Below the pieces are notes generated by a model, which saw only the letters and a list, made by a program, of their open reading frames with translations, ran no database searches and had not been told where the DNA came from. The position numbers and the translations under genes are program-made. A DNA stretch of 64,000 nt from Chondrosia reniformis (taxonomy: Eukaryota > Porifera > Demospongiae > Chondrillida > Chondrillidae). The stretch is from positions 3,808,001 to 3,872,000 of the forward strand of contig OX359199.1 of NCBI GenBank assembly GCA_947172415.1, given 5' to 3'. Positions 51,955 to 60,699 of this stretch are shown one piece after another (within the stretch, counting starts at the first letter, position 1; each line of letters opens with the position of its first letter).

Positions 51955-54427
51955 AGGGAGATATCTGGTGCCCTAGTCTTTACAGAATTGAATCCTAAAA
52001 AGAAGAGGACTGATATTAAAAGCAAAAGAGAGGAAAAAAGCTCAAAGTAAAGTAACCTTATACGAAATGATTAAAGAAAAAAAGTTGAAGGACTACCCAA
52101 GTACGCCAACACCAAGTCCAAAGAAGGTTTTACCACAAGCTGAGAATAAGAAAGATAGACACAAAAGGAAGGTGGGCATATTAGATTAACTACAGATATT
52201 AGATAACTTTCACAAGTCAGAAGGAACTGTTAAACCCCTAATAATAGCCATTGTTGAGAAAAATGTATCTTTAGGTAACTGAGCTCTATGTTTCCCCTCA
52301 TAATGAGGCAACTCCCCTATTAATACTTAGTACCACATCAGCTGTACGGGGATCAAGTGTTGCCTTTGGATACAACTTTAGTGTACTGAATAGCCCACAC
52401 GAAGTAACCAAAATTAAACCAGAGCTACAGATTCCTTTGGCTTAAGAGGATTCATCTTTCCATTCAGATTATTATTTCAGACTTCAATGGTAATGGAACT
52501 GATGAAAGATTACCTGCTTCTTTTACCACATTTCAAATGAGTGTTGCTATTGCTATACATGGTGTGGGAGGAATGCTAGTGCATTAATAGCCAGCTTTAT
52601 AGTTAACCATATAGGACGATAAATATTAACACAACATCACAATATAAGGAGAGCATATAATTATGTGTCATTCAGTAGCTTGTGTTATTCCTTGCAGGAA
52701 GAATTCCATGCTACTAAACAATATACCCATCATAGTAGGTGGACTGTTAGAGACAGTGGCTGTTCATCCGTTTATCCTCATAATTGGCCGATTTGGAGTT
52801 GGCCTGAACAATGGTCTGTTGAGAATAGTAACCTCTAATACTGTGTCTCCATATCTAATATATACATATATACTCACTCATTATATACCTCATAAAACAA
52901 GCAATGTAACGATGGTATATATGTATATAAACCCTATATCTACAGGCATTGGTACTATCAGTTATAATATCCAGAAACATGCATATTCATGATTTGTATT
53001 TCCTATTTGTGGTTAATGAATTTCATTAACACATCATGAATAAAAATTGTTATAATTAGGTGCACCCACCACCTATATATACAATGAACCACAAACATAA
53101 AAGTATATGTAATTGACATATGCCTTAATCTTATTAAAGCAGCTATACAGCCAGCATTCTACTTAACTGACAAAAATGTATGTATACTACATATATGTAG
53201 GTGCTAGAACTGTACTAGTACCAGTGTATCTCTCTGAAATATCCCCTCTAAGATGGAGAGGAATAATTACATCAGCACATCAACTCAGCACAGTGGCAGC
53301 AACATTATTGGTCGACATATTATCATTACAGGAAGTAAGTCATATCAGCTTTAAACCACAACTGTAATTGGAAGGGTGTTTTGTATCCTTTAATGCATGC
53401 AAAACCAGCTATTCACTGTTTTAGTTACATAAATTCTTCACAGAAGTGTTGCAGCATAATAGATATATTTATGCAAAGGATATGAAATGTACAATTTGTA
53501 TATCCATTTTTGGACATGTAAGTATACTTATGTCAAATTAGTCAGTAACTCTTCTTCCACCTAACCATAGATCCTCGGAAAAGCATTGTATAGATGGAGG
53601 ATATTACTGGGACTAACTCTGTTGCCAGCTGTTTTTCAACTACATACTAACATTGCCATTTTGTCCAGAGAGTCTAAGACATTTGTACATATATAAGGAA
53701 GATACAGAGAAAGCTGAGAGAGGTATACAAACTTAAAGCTAACATTTACAGTTAGTAACTTATCTACGTATGTACATATCTTATATATACGTTATATTTG
53801 ATTTTTGTATTTCTTACCATAATCTGTGGGTTTAATTACATATAACTTTAGGGATGATAAGAAGAACAAAAGATCTTAGCAAAGAATTACAATATTACGA
53901 AAGGGATAAAAGAGAAATTCAAGGAAAAGCAAAGTTTAAGTGGTTAGAAATAGTCATGAATGGTGGCATGAGAAGGGCCCTTTTCACAAGTATTGGAATT
54001 CACCTTTCCCCACACTTGGCAGGAATAGGAGTAGTATGTGGGATTGTATATACGTACATTTACAATAAAACTTACCAATATACTTGTCAATACATGGAAA
54101 ATTAACTAATCAGCAGTTAAGATTAATACGTATGTACTGTATGTGTATATATGCATAAAATTTAAAATGTTCAGTGATTTGGGGATCTACATATACATAC
54201 ATGTACTGATCAATTGAAAGCTAGGTATATGACAGTACGCACATGTAATTAAAGACTGGCTGGCTAATAAACATATTGGTGTATACACAGTATTATCATT
54301 TGCAAGCTCTCTCCTTCCCTTATAGATACTCTACTACAGTACAGCTATTTTCAAAGCAGCTAAAGTTCAGTCTGAGTTAGCCACCGTTTTTACTGGAATA
54401 GCCTTACGGCTATCAACCATTTTTGTA
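51955..54427 (+). pseudogene. GLUT/SLC2A-family sugar transporter, frameshifted and 3' truncated
   Basis: Recognisable pieces in order: a basic N-terminal exon ending 52171 (KDYPSTPTPSPKKVLPQAEN), exon 52275-~52445 (PLLILSTTSAVRGSSVAFGY, with NSPHEV), exon ~52482-52581, exon 52697-52813 (GRKNSMLL and GRFGVGLNNG), exon 53201-53334 (VPVYLSEISPLRWRG), exon 53571-53722 (PAVFQL, then after a +1 shift LPFCPESLRHLYIY), exon 53852-54033 and exon 54326-54427 (ILYYSTAIF). These are GLUT signatures of the first seven or so membrane segments: GRK loop, PxYxSEIxP and PESPR-like. The later half is absent; the sequence after 54427 becomes repeats and a retrotransposon fragment. The second exon has no good donor. 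I judge it non-functional. Confidence 0.75.
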
Positions 54428-54684: not shown

Positions 54685-54825
54685 TGGTGACAGGGGGTTA
54701 GGAGAGGAAGTGAATGCTAGTAATAATAATAATAAAATAGGTGTCAGAGGTGAGGAGAGGGAGTGAATGATAATAATAGTAATAATAAAATAGGTGACAG
54801 GGGGTGAGGAGAGGAAGTGAATGAG
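54685..54825. repeat. Three-unit tandem repeat, about 55-60 bp
   Basis: Units read GTGACAGGGGGTTAGGAGAG-GAAGTGAATG with (TAA)n between them; the second unit has GTGTCAGAGGTGAGGAGAGG. Confidence 0.85.
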
Positions 54826-54834
54826 AGACCGCTC

Positions 54835-55836
54835 TATCCACTTGGAAACGTGGCCTACCGGAAGATACACCCCTGCCCCCTTGCAGTTTACGTGGCCGTC
54901 AGAAGTCATGGGACCAACCCAGAGTTGAACAGCTTTACCTATCCCTCCTGTCCAACTGTGACAATGACATATCTAGGGCCCATCTTCTTGCAGCTGCCTC
55001 AAAGCATTCTGGAGCTTGGCTTAATGCCCCTCCAGTCTCCTCCCTTGGTCTGCAAATGTCCAACGAAACTATTCGCATAGCTGTGGGCCTACTGGTGGGA
55101 GCTACCATCTGTCATCCTCACAACTGCGAGTTTTGTGGCAGGGAGGTCGACCAGCTTGGCCATCACGGTTTATCATGCAGATACAGTCAGGGCCGCCTTG
55201 CTTGACACAATGCGTTGAACAGCATCATCCATCGCTCCTTGGGTGCAGCAGATTCCTTCCCGCCTGGAGCCATCTGGTCTCCACCACTCAGATGGCAAAT
55301 GCCCCGATGGTGTCACTATGACCCCATGGTCAGAAGGCAAGTTCCTTGTCTGGGACGCCACTTGTGTAGACACCTTTTGCGAGTCCTACAAGCACAAGTG
55401 TGCCTCAGAGTGTGGAGCAGCTGCAGCACATGCTGAAGGAGAAAAGGCCGGCAAGTACTCCAGCTTTGACCGTGCCTACTCCTTCCAGCCCATTGCAATT
55501 GAGACCTCAGGCTCAGTTGGCCCCAGCACCATGTCTTTCCTGAGGGTTTTTGGCCATCGTTTGAAGACGACCACAGGAGAGCCTCAGTTTCTTGCATTTC
55601 TATTGCAAAGGCTCTCTGTAGCCATCCAGACTGGGAATGCCATCTCAGTGTCAATTGGGCTCCCTTGGGCCCACCTCTTGACTTGTTTTATAAGTAAATG
55701 TGTTATTAGATCACTTTTCATGGATAATTATTTAATCTTTGTGTTTCCTGTATTATTTCATCTAGTATTTTATTGTATATGGACACTTAGGCCTTTTCTT
55801 TTCTTAATCCTGTTACCTCATTCATGCTCTAATTAC

Positions 55837-55877
<41 letters not shown>

Positions 55878-55880: not shown

Positions 55881-56521
55881 CTCTATTGAATTTTCGAATT
55901 CACCATAATATTTGCACACACTAACCCATATAGCTATAGGGTAGTACCTCAGCATTATATAATTATAATATGTACCCTACATAGACACTCAGACGTATAT
56001 ACCTATATAGATCTGTAATAGCTATTTGACTAACGAACGCAAAGTACCTATATATACGTAAATAGTTAATAGTTCTGCTTTGGCCATGCAGGAGCTTTAT
56101 AACACAATATATGCAACTGCAGATTCACATGTTTCCACGACCATGCACAGTTATACATAATTCATTGAGAAAAGATGCATTTACTTGTGGCGTATACAAG
56201 CTTATATAATTAAGGCCTTTTAATATAACCTACCAGCAAAATTCCGGGTCTTTCACAGGTGCTCGATCTAGCTACGTATACGTATATACACACTCAGGTC
56301 ACATACAAGTCATAAATTCATATTACGCATGCGCATGCATGGAGCATTTTGATTAGTCCAATTGCATATGCCATAATTTATGGCATATGTAATTGGAACA
56401 ATCAAAATGGTCATATTTTCAAGGATGCCTATATATTATATAAGCATCCTTGAAAATATGACCACATAAATATCGTGAAATAATTAATGCTGATCATTTC
56501 ATGCAAACAAGTTAGCTAGTT
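55881..56521. other. Intergenic with two adjacent hairpins
   Basis: AT-rich sequence. At 56343-56462 two stem-loops follow one another (separate entry). No gene. Confidence 0.45.
56343..56462. repeat. Two adjacent long stem-loops
   Basis: The first has arms CATTTTGATT(AGT)CCAATTGCATATGCCATAA and the inverted TTATGGCATATGTAATTGGA...AATCAAAATG. Directly after it, GTCATATTTTCAAGGATGC faces GCATCCTTGAAAATATGAC over a 15-base AT loop. Confidence 0.9.
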
Positions 56522-59500
56522 TTACAAAAATACAAATGTTAGCATGATATCAAATAAAAAAACTGATGACCAACATATAAGCAGCACTTGAAGATAGGGA
56601 AGCAATTTTTTCTTTTCTCCAAAAGATGAAGGGCTTTCATCAGCATCAGTACATTCTGGTATTTGTGTCTGTAGAGTAGAAAATTAGTAGTATAAAAATA
56701 AAAGTTGGTAACAAAAATCTACATAATTTACATGAATGAAGAGAAATTCTACTATGTCATTTGTCCATCTTTATTCCACTAATTACAAATTTAGTATTAT
56801 ATATGCATGTGTCTTTTAGGAAAACATATGGATTTGACCAGTTCTGCTTGACTGAATGTTGGTTTAAATTCATATATATACTGATTCAGAAGTATCAGAG
56901 CCTTACATCACCCTCAGAAAGTAAAACTCCAGGCTTTAGAAAGACATTAAAAATAAATTAGCCCATTTTCTTGCATAAGGTATTTAGCAATTTCAGTTTA
57001 ATTTTGGGAGCACACAATTGCAACTTAGCAATAATTGCCTTCTCGCACAGGGGCAAATAAACATATTATGTACTACATATATACATACTTGGAACTCAAC
57101 GATTGTGTAGTCACAGTTACTGCTATTCACAGGGAAGCTTAAGTTCAAATCTGCTTGATATGCATCCAATTGCCACTAAATAGAAAGCTAAACAATTAAT
57201 GCTCGACTGAATGTCAATTTAAATTCATATAGTGAATTATCACAAACTTACACTAATTTCTATCACCTTCTGAAAGTCTACTGATTTAATAGTGATTATT
57301 ATACATATGTATATAATATTTTTAATACACTTTCCAAACAATGTGCATATAAAAATATTATGTTGATCCTGAATGAAACATTGTACATATGTACCTATGG
57401 TGTCCATGCAAAATATTAAATCACTGATATTGACATAAACAATATATTATAAACAATATATTACAAACAAACAAAAATGTAGCAAACAACGTATGTACGC
57501 ACATTGCATTGTATACGACCTTACGCAATGGATCATTGGAATGTTCCAAATCTTCACTCCTTGAAAAGATCTAATATATATACATGTATATGCAAATTCT
57601 ATAAGAGCTTCTAGAATACATATACATGTACATGTACAAAATAGCTCCTAATGAGTAATCAAAAAATGTTACAAGGTGCTCTTGGTAATTATACATCATT
57701 GCTACAGCATTCAAGTAGCCTGGGATCGAAATGGCAAAAAGAAGTTCGTGAAATTTGCTTTGAGGCCTAGGATTAAATAAATCGCTGGTAGCTAAGAAAA
57801 CAAATGTGCTAGATTTACTACACTTCTTGATTAATGCTGTATATTCTATTAATCAGGAATCACATCATATCGTACATGATAGATAATTCCCCCATTATCC
57901 AGCATGGTAATTAGGTATACGTATCTTTATATATATAACTTGTACTGTATATATATATATATATGTATAAGACAAGGGTAGCAACTGGAAGTACGTATGT
58001 ATATAAGAATAAAACAATACAGGCAGCACCACAGCTATATACTAGAAAAACAGAATAAAGAAAGTAACCAGTACTCCTCACAAATCTATAGGTCTATAAC
58101 TGATATGAGCTAATTTGTCAGCTACAAAATAAAAGGGAGTAAATATCAAATTTTCTAAGTTATATTAGGTGGTGGCATGTTACATGTCACATAATAATCC
58201 CACACATACGTACATGGTACTCACTTTTATACCAATAAATTTCTTTTCATTACACTGAGAACATCCTCTTTCATTGCACAATTCACAGACTTGATGTTCA
58301 CACTTGCATACTACTACTACAGGTCTGTCCTGTATGTAACAGTCCTGACACAAGTGGACTTGCACTTCATACAAAAATGCTTCTCTTTCGCTTGCTATAT
58401 ACAGCACAAATGTATTTAAATATGCCATAAAACGTTATGTTAAAGTACTGATTTACTGCTATATACCTACCTTAAATTTCAGAGTCACTGGATCACCAAG
58501 CATTTCACTACATATTGGACATTTCTTATGATCATTGGAGCAAGTTGAACAGAAGGGATGGCCACAAGTAAATATGACTTCTCTCAAATTCCTATTACAC
58601 TCCTGACAGTACAGGTCATTTGATGGGCATCCATTAGATTCTGTACAACAGCTACAGGTCTATAAAAATGTCTTGTAAATGCATACATAGCCATGCTTGA
58701 CATTATAGAGTACTATGAATGGTAATGTGTTATATTCAGCAAATATTTAGTTAGCTTGTAAACATCATATATACTGTACATTACCTTCCACCTCACTCCA
58801 ATTCAAACTAGACAATTTGTATAGCATGTCACAATAATAAACAATCGATTACTATTTGACAAAAAAGGAATTAGCCAGGCTGCAGATAAATACATTCACA
58901 TATTACAAGTTAATCCCATTGCATACATTTGGATTGTGGAAAAAGAATAAAATTATTGTAGCAGCTTTTGATTATACCTCAGTATATATGGTTTCAAACT
59001 TTTCATTAGGAACGTTTCTAGCTATAGGGGAGAGATTCCTATGAAAGTTTAGTTCTGCATAAGTTGTTCTGGCCTCTTGCTGATTTATCTTTGACATTTT
59101 TTGGGAGTTCTAAAGAGTGACCAAGTTATTAAATACTTAATGACTATATTTTAAATGCATTATGAACTTACTGTTTTAACTTTTTTCTGCTACAATAACA
59201 ACAGATTGAAAGAACAATCACATACAATATTGCAACTCCTACAAATATTCCCAACACACTCCCTAATGGCTTGGATAAATCACCTGGTAGTGCTTGACTA
59301 GGAGCTTCTGAAAGTGCAGAATATCATATAAGATGTTAATAACATTTTATATATATATATAGCTTACCAAAAGTTGGGTCTTAACATACGTACGGATATA
59401 TGTAAACCAGGCTTACCATTTTCTTCTTTTGTATTTGAGGATAAAGTAGTTACATTCATTACTGCTGGTTCACTTCTAATTGATCTGTTTTTTTGCAAAG

Positions 59501-59731
59501 GCAGTGATGGAAATTATATATTGTGTTTCTGGTGGCAATCCCTCAAACTTGTAGTTCGTGTTTTCTGTATAGTAAGTCTTAGACGTCCTATTATTTATAA
59601 TGTTACATTCATACTCAATTTAATTCTATTAAAACAGTCTTTATTTATCAAATTGGCCCCTGATGTCCAATTACAAACTATGAAATCAATGGAGACGTCA
59701 TCTTCAAGGATAAAAGGTGAACTGAGCACTT
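56522..59731 (-). CDS. Candidate receptor: FN3 - transmembrane - ITIM-like tail - RING - RING-like, with frame damage
   Basis: Exons read 5' to 3' on the minus strand. 59731-59417 is an FN3-like domain (EVLSSPFILEDD ... YKFEGLPPETQYIISITAFA). 59307-59172 has a membrane span (LGSVLGIFVGVAILYVIVLS) then CCYCSRKK. 59109-58978 is a tail with TTYAEL, which fits an ITIM. 58659-58467 is a C3HC4 RING (CQECNRNLREVIFTCGHPFC). 58394-58225 is a second Cys-rich RING-like unit (CQDC...CKCEHQVCELCNERGC). Last exons 57175-57089 and 56668-56522 end in a hydrophobic segment and TAA; pieces at 57791 and 57559 may lie between. Single-base shifts occur at an A7 run in the FN3 exon, earlier in the same exon (after MNVT) and at an A6 run in the ITIM exon. 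These may be mutations or assembly errors. RING and membrane exons join in compatible phases but could belong to two genes. Confidence 0.55.
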
Positions 59732-59784
59732 CTGGTGCAAAGAGAAATAGGAAAGCCTAATATCAGTAACAATTAATACAAAAT

Positions 59785-60460
59785 ACTATATATATATATA
59801 TATATATTTACTTGCAATTGTCCATGTGTAGGAATAAGTAGTGTTATATATTATGCATGTTTAAATACAATCAACTCCCAAAATAATCACAATCAGGTAT
59901 ATTAAACGCTACAAGACTTTAGCCACACTGAAATTAATGATCCTGGGGCCTTTATGTCCCTGTGTGCAAGTTACCAAATCGTCTCTAACCCTGTTGTTTA
60001 TGTGAATGCATGAAAGCAACCAATGGTACTCCTAGCTCACGCTCAAGGCAAGTCAAAAATGTGGTGATTATTATCTGAGACCCCCTGCATGAGACTGGAA
60101 TTTTGCTGCATGATAATGGCATGCAGATGATCATCTTCAGTCTATACTAAGGTGTGAAAAGGTAATTGGAAGGCCATGTGTTTTAACCTTATATGATCTG
60201 TAGAGACTACTACTCTGTATGCAGCAGTTGAGAATTTCAGTGTGGCTAAAGTCTTGTAGCGTTTAATATTCCTGACTGTGATTATTTTGGGAGTCATTTG
60301 CATCCGTATTATATTATATACCTCAGTGTGATTATCTTGGGAGTCACTTGCATCCGTGTATAAATTTGTAACTTGCACTGTGTAGTACTCGATTGTATTT
60401 AAACATGTATAATATATAACACTCCTTATTCCTACACATGGACAATTGCAAGTATATACA
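59785..60460. mobile_element. Dispersed repeat, copy 2 (foldback)
   Basis: Same blocks as 50885-51425. The ends are inverted copies of each other: CTTGCAATTGTCCATGTGTA at the left and TACACATGGACAATTGCAAG at the right. It sits directly upstream of the FN3 exon and may have separated that gene from its 5' exons. Confidence 0.75.
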
Positions 60461-60699
60461 AGGTTATGAACAGGAAGCCATACGTTAACATAATTTCTGA
60501 AAACAATATAGGGGCGCCTCTGGTGCCCCCAAAAAAATTAATAAGAGAGAATGAACACATCATTATTTTGAAATTTACAGAAAATCAAGTGATGTGTTAT
60601 AAAAAAAAAGTATCAGCAAGATCACAGTGTCTCAAATATAATGAAATATCTATATGAATGAGTCCTGGCATGCTACCATAGAAATGTACACTATAATTA

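Follow-up and report, generated by a model that had tools for sequence, protein, structure and literature searches.

Gene content of the chromosome 11 segment

The window is the whole stretch of DNA analysed, 64,000 nucleotides of chromosome 11 (C11) of the sponge Chondrosia reniformis, positions 3808001-3872000; coordinates below are those of the window unless a chromosome is named, and C1 stands for chromosome 1. Its minus strand holds a duplicated segment (55965..59792) homologous to C1:8470568-8474608, in which seven exons were assigned by homology to the chromosome 1 gene: FN3, transmembrane (TM), tail, RING1, RING2, and two 3' exons, e7 and e8. The minus-strand order FN3, TM, tail, RING1, RING2 proposed in the initial annotation is thus present in the window.

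The FN3 exon (59417..59731), identified by Pfam and alignment, differs from the parental exon by indels and an early stop; its C-terminal half matches Pfam fn3 at E = 0.0022 and 18.6 bits, against a cut-off of 25. The TM exon (59172..59307) is 89% identical to the chromosome 1 TM exon and has a 7-nt deletion near its end, so that it no longer joins the tail in phase. The cytoplasmic tail exon (58978..59109; 82% identity to the chromosome 1 tail exon) encodes the hexapeptide TTYAEL and, at the exon end, the motif TIYTE|V. This second tyrosine motif and the Ig domain predicted in the related genes were absent from the initial description, as were the reading of the tail exon to a stop after Val and its possible in-phase skipping. 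The intron between tail and RING1 (58660..58977) reads GAG|GTATAA...TATAG|ACC, with a weak donor; the length of 318 bases and phase 0 on both sides that had been given for it are exact. The RING1 exon (58471..58659; 89% identity to the parent) is open, in phase 0-0, and encodes all eight C3HC4 ligands; it scores 30.2 bits with Pfam zf-C3HC4_3 (cut-off 27), and its sole in-frame ATG lies 3' of the last zinc ligand. The RING2 exon (58225..58394) is 1 base shorter than in the parent, with its first fifth and its core in different frames, and no Pfam model reaches its cut-off on the core. Two RING-type units had been claimed here; the first stands, whereas the second is frame-shifted and falls below every cut-off. 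The short 3' coding exon e7 (57089..57175) was placed by homology to the parent, and the last exon, e8 (56522..56668), has lost the parental stop and reads on to a later TAA.

Origin and state of the segment

In blastn, window 55965-59792 aligned to C1:8470568-8474608 in three co-linear pieces with 84.6-89.2% identity including gaps; the introns are 87-96% identical to those of the parent without gaps, and dS is about 0.10. Because the introns are retained, the segment is a duplicate made at the DNA level, and a processed retrocopy is ruled out. Signal and Ig exons are absent, since homology stops at 59792, inside the intron that separates Ig from FN3 in the parent. A fold-back (inverted-repeat) element of about 650 nt (59805..60458; arms of 68 nt at 96% and 71 nt at 92% identity) adjoins this 5' edge and occupies the place of the parental Ig-FN3 intron, Ig exon, and signal exon.

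Relative to the parent, the alignment gives indels and an early stop in FN3, the loss of 7 nt in TM and of 1 nt in RING2, and a terminal exon without the parental stop. With the exons joined at the homologous splice sites, every one of the three frames is interrupted somewhere in the seven exons, and tail and RING1 are the only exons still joined in one open frame; the window copy therefore cannot encode the proposed receptor. Judged from its sequence, the segment is a pseudogene, a duplicate of a chromosome 1 gene that is truncated at its 5' end and broken in frame. Of the FN3-TM-ITIM-RING receptor proposed for this DNA, the domain order is real in the open frames of the chromosome 1 paralogues described below; the copy for which it was proposed is truncated and broken. 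Sequencing or assembly error is an unlikely source of the broken frames, as the copy, 84.6-89.2% identical to its parent, carries several scattered indels and QV 69.8 is reported for the assembly, odChoReni1.1 or GCA_947172415.1 (14 chromosomes, 117.37 Mb; PMC12181767).

The dN/dS ratio between the window copy and the chromosome 1 gene (A) is 0.66 overall, 0.84 for the receptor exons, and 0.49 for the RING and later exons; by unit, it is 0.42 for RING1 and 0.80 for RING2. The retained splice sites, the open frame shared by tail and RING1, and the ratio of RING1 would suit a copy that is itself functional, giving a short product from inside the tail exon into RING1 or a regulatory transcript. 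We consider this very improbable: the FN3, TM, and RING2 frames are broken, the terminal stop is lost, and neither a signal nor an Ig exon is present, while the RING1 ratio rests on 11 substitutions, could arise if only the parental branch were constrained, and is not matched by RING2.

Related genes on chromosome 1

A RING2 search of the genome (117,379,552 bases in 15 contigs) gave nine matches at E<=1, made up of seven RING2 loci and two cross-hits to RING1 exons. Six of the loci lie inside 49 kb of chromosome 1, at 8439.9 (C), 8448.5 (F1), 8451.6 (F2), 8472.9 (A), 8484.1 (B), and 8488.4 kb (F3), and the seventh is that of the window. A tail exon is recognisable upstream of RING2 in five of the seven (A, B, C, F1, window), and an Ig-FN3 ectodomain in three (A, B, C). 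F1 is a fourth chromosome 1 locus that retains TM-tail-RING-RING; at F2 and F3, RING2 was found with no recognised tail.

Continuous spliced frames were obtained for A (493 aa to the stop), C (563 aa to the stop), and B (489 aa, its 3' end not settled). The order is signal, Ig, FN3, a second Ig in C only, TM, tail, RING1, RING2, to which A adds two short 3' exons. Exon junctions in the three models have GT donors and AG acceptors. The Ig exon of B has no AG at the place usual in the family, and its model takes an in-phase AG that lies 18 nt upstream; hydrophobicity and the fit of the donor were the only guides to the signal exons. FN3 of C exceeds the Pfam cut-off of 25 (45.2 bits), and those of A (21.5) and B (24.2) fall below it. 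The Ig domain of A reaches 18.8 bits against a cut-off of 30, and no Ig model was reported by Pfam for full-length A and C at E<=0.01; Ig of B was assigned by its 84% identity to Ig of A, and the second Ig of C by eye.

The proposed domain order is thus borne out as that of a gene family, whose members A, B, and C give open spliced frames including a likely signal peptide. These three genes appear to join Ig-type outer domains, inhibitory-type tyrosine motifs, and ubiquitin-ligase-type domains. With a probability of roughly three in four, the window segment is a broken duplicate from a small sponge IgSF family whose open members A, B, and C encode single-pass ITIM-like/RING receptors.

RING-type units

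The eight-ligand C3HC4 spacing is complete in six of the seven units checked (RING1 of A, B, and the window; RING2 of A, B, and C), and one zinc ligand is missing from RING1 of C. The Pfam cut-off of 27 is passed by RING1 of the window, as given above, of B (29.5 bits), and of C (27.3 bits); RING1 of A and RING2 of the window, A, B, and C remain below the Pfam cut-offs. A RING1 profile matched solved structures in the PDB with E-values from 1.8e-8 to 8.4e-6 (MIB1 RING3, BIRC7, BIRC2/3, RNF4, XIAP). The third RING of MIB1 and the RINGs of the IAP (BIRC) proteins are its closest matches there; RING2 has no significant match in the PDB. MIB1 and the IAPs are cytosolic proteins, unlike the predicted sponge membrane receptor.

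The RING exons look constrained between paralogues: pN/pS is 0.076/0.305 for RING1 and 0.067/0.299 for RING2 of B and F1, and 0.054/0.242 for RING2 of B and F2. Between pairs of A, B, and C, pS of the RING exons is near saturation (0.70-0.91), with pN of 0.26-0.49. A search with RING1 of B returned 16 matches at E<=1: five family RING1 loci, three cross-hits to RING2, and eight weaker RING-like matches elsewhere. A dispersed element as the source of the RING exons is unsupported, the close relatives that these searches found lying only in the 49-kb stretch of chromosome 1 and in the window.

Tyrosine motifs of the tail

The strict ITIM consensus is [SIVL]xYxx[ILV]. Two strict matches occur in B (IAYATI and VLYAEV, the second of which needs a Val that is encoded past the tail donor, when the donor is read through) and one in C (VIYNEV alone, with the same need). 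A and the window have no strict ITIM; TTYAEL and TIYTEV, the latter again dependent on the read-through Val, fit only the wider form [SIVLT]xYxx[ILV]. TTYAEL, reported initially as an ITIM-like hexapeptide, is therefore present in the tail exon and ITIM-like in the wider sense but not the strict one. Two wide-form motifs, the read-through Val being counted in the second, arose in 0.2% of 20,000 shuffles of the 45-residue window tail.

When the tail donor is read through, Tyr+3 is Val; a stop follows at once in A and the window, and after 2 more codons in F1, 3 in C, and 14 in B. Splicing to RING1 exchanges this Val for Thr (A), Ser (B), or Pro (C), so that the second motif is spoiled and the first retained. 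Val follows automatically from any phase-0 GT donor, and only its placement at Tyr+3 is informative; common descent may explain part of that placement. The pattern Y-x-E|GT(A/G) after an open frame of at least 15 residues occurs at nine sites on the minus strand of 64 kb of chromosome 1, of which four are the ends of the tails that precede RING1 in A, B, C, and F1. As the other five are not, the pattern as such is not specific.

Tyrosine motifs of this kind would have plausible readers of the SHP type in the same genome, since SH2-SH2-PTP-like arrays occur there: the order was found twice, in partial matches, on C3:9106746-9116518.

Predicted joining of receptor and RING exons

The junction of tail and RING1 is phase 0|0 in A, B, and C, and also in F1, where another acceptor AG is used. 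On C1 it lies at 8473792|8473382 in A, 8484884|8484834 in B, and 8440493|8440362 in C; a direct junction of TM and RING1 would lie at 8473989|8473382 in A. The corresponding tail-RING1 intron of B measures 49 nt, less than any of the other 20 modelled, of which the shortest has 62 nt, and contains GTAAGT, a TACTAAG branch-like site, a pyrimidine run, and AG; its donor has the top score among the 21 junctions compared. The tail donors of A (1.76), C (1.40), F1 (1.40), and the window (3.38) all score below the 18 reference junctions (4.63-10.78). Neither AATAAA nor ATTAAA occurs in the tail-RING1 introns of A, B, C, or the window; AATAAA lies about 165 nt past the RING2 stop of C, and ATTAAA about 350 nt past the stop of A.

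The predicted fusion rests on genomic sequence, and the tail frames may end just past the exon, so the RING exons could form a separate gene, lying by chance on the same strand 3' of the receptor. Such an arrangement would fit the in-frame ATG near the start of RING1 in B and the RING2 exons of F2 and F3, which have no recognised tail. It is nevertheless improbable, given that order and phase are common to A, B, C, and F1 and that tail and RING1 of B are just 49 nt apart. Moreover, the open frame of RING1 has no in-frame ATG in A and C, and the candidate ATG-GT mini-exons in the introns of A, C, and the window have donors that are, by eye, far from GTRAGT.

Harder to set aside, though in our judgement still rather unlikely, are alternative C-termini. 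Each gene would then make either an ITIM receptor, with the tail read to the stop after Val, or a TM-RING ligase that omits the tail exon, and a polypeptide with both ITIM and RING would, at least for A and C, be rare or never made. Being in phase 0 at both ends, the tail exon forms a symmetric cassette, and direct joining of TM to RING1 keeps the frame in A, B, and C; together with the weak tail donors of A, C, F1, and the window, this means that ITIM and RING could be alternative ends in A and C. Read-through, moreover, completes the second motif with Val at +3 and soon stops (0-14 codons). Against these points stand the short intron of B with the strongest donor of the set, and the absence of a canonical poly(A) signal from the four introns (A, B, C, window). 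A retained-intron form, having its stop upstream of later junctions, might also be lost to nonsense-mediated decay.

B thus favours the joined form, and A and C are compatible with either form; a predicted polypeptide that joins ITIM and RING is well supported for gene B only. Depending on splicing, each gene could make a receptor with both motifs, a RING receptor with one motif, or a RING receptor with none. We put forward, as a tentative and on balance unlikely extension, that a splice-switched inhibitory receptor evolved within a very large IgSF cluster: the 5' splice site of the cassette overlaps the +3 Val codon of the terminal tyrosine motif, and one gene would give an inhibitory receptor with both motifs, a receptor that combines a motif with RING units and acts in cis as a ubiquitin ligase, or a membrane RING ligase free of motifs. 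Written GAG-GTA, a YxE-V motif already forms a splice donor, and the RING exons may have been captured by this route.

Proposed function and comparison with known systems

For the joined form, the ectodomain (Ig, FN3, and in C a second Ig-like exon) would most likely bind a ligand or discriminate self from non-self. The tail tyrosines, in two ITIM/ITSM-like motifs, would upon phosphorylation recruit SH2 proteins, for example SHP-type phosphatases; the RING part, reached by phase-0 splicing, would bind E2 enzymes and ubiquitinate the receptor or its partners. The net effect would be inhibitory signalling coupled in cis to down-regulation. The predicted product would be a recognition receptor of an inhibitory or self-limiting kind, in which tyrosine signalling is linked in cis to ubiquitination. 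If transcripts confirm the joined form, an early-branching animal would have tyrosine-based inhibition and ubiquitin ligation in one receptor; in vertebrates, these two off-switches reside, to our knowledge, in separate proteins (the receptor and a recruited SHP or Cbl-type ligase).

KIR, LILRB, SIGLEC, PECAM-1, and PD-1 are vertebrate inhibitory Ig receptors with ITIM or ITSM tails, and the predicted sponge proteins would resemble them in the single membrane pass, the Ig/FN3-type ectodomain, and the two tyrosine motifs of the tail. In contrast to strict ITIM receptors, the motifs of A and the window carry Thr at -2 and are ITSM-like. We know of no RING domain in this vertebrate class. LILRB is described as an ITIM-bearing inhibitory Ig receptor (PMC11999971).

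A second likeness is to the PA-TM-RING ligases, which share a receptor-like ectodomain, one membrane span, and a cytoplasmic RING. RNF43/ZNRF3 and GRAIL/RNF128 belong to this group. The predicted sponge receptor differs from them in its Ig/FN3 ectodomain, its tandem RING-type units, and its tyrosine motifs, and no Pfam model for a PA domain was found in full-length A and C at E<=0.01. The predicted Ig/FN3-ITIM-RING arrangement is a domain combination new to us, composed of receptor and E3 kinds that are known. A narrow search of titles and abstract openings in the openly licensed literature retrieved no description of an Ig/FN3-ITIM-RING receptor or of the C. reniformis cluster.

Genomic setting of the family

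A search with the Ig exon of A gave 179 candidates, of which 150 matches were listed, some of them pieces of one exon. Among the matches listed, at least 120 lie on chromosome 1, at least 106 of them in C1:8.31-9.46 Mb, so that many linked paralogous Ig-domain genes are found on this chromosome. Such a setting recalls the Alr genes of Hydractinia, described as a linked IgSF receptor family in an early-branching animal (PMC11067881); the sponge genes differ in their RING tails, and the sponge cluster is known here from one assembly. The very large IgSF cluster on chromosome 1 of C. reniformis is a candidate recognition locus in sponges.

Four other receptor stretches (three on chromosome 1, one on C10; 18 kb inspected by eye) contain no RING, and the genome-wide RING searches place none there; within reach of these searches, the RING tails therefore seem to have arisen locally, in one 49-kb stretch of chromosome 1. 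Tails were recognised in three of the four stretches (L072, L074, L075) and differ in type, reading NPAY(I/V)PIEM...TYV.

On chromosome 1 of Chondrosia reniformis, matches to the Ig exon of gene A (the paralogue from which the window copy derives) form a very large group on both strands of C1:8310000-9460000. Of the 150 matches listed (best 150 of 179 candidates, some being pieces of one exon), 106 fall in this interval; FN3, TM and varied tyrosine tails were found in those members of the cluster that were read. The cluster may thus be where this sponge encodes receptors for recognition, or even allorecognition.

Two consecutive exon arrays resembling SH2-SH2-PTP, the domain order of SHP-type phosphatases (candidate readers of receptor tail tyrosine motifs), are located at C3:9106746-9116518 and, judged from partial sequence matches, are possibly SHP-type phosphatase genes of the sponge. 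Among the matches listed, many linked Y_phosphatase-like exon matches lie on C6 (about 0.61-1.26 Mb) and on C13 (about 1.65-1.96 Mb), which suggests large tyrosine-phosphatase gene clusters.

Beside gene A, long open frames (L007/L008, C1:8467301-8470568) read by eye like a putative LINE endonuclease and reverse transcriptase; the first of them begins at 8470568, the very position at which gene A and the window copy cease to be homologous. A fold-back element (window 59805-60458) adjoins the 5' edge of the duplicate; its arms, in inverted orientation, are 68 nt at 96% and 71 nt at 92%. A related piece of 82 nt (window 60453-60534) is found at C1:8477.6 kb, the surroundings of which also match window 24.1 kb.

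Plus-strand open frames in the window include one at 53167-53367, by eye like a sugar-transporter (MFS) exon, and those at 54825-55842, with a C-x2-C...H...C-type end, which, again by eye, look like putative remnants of a retroelement reverse-transcriptase region.
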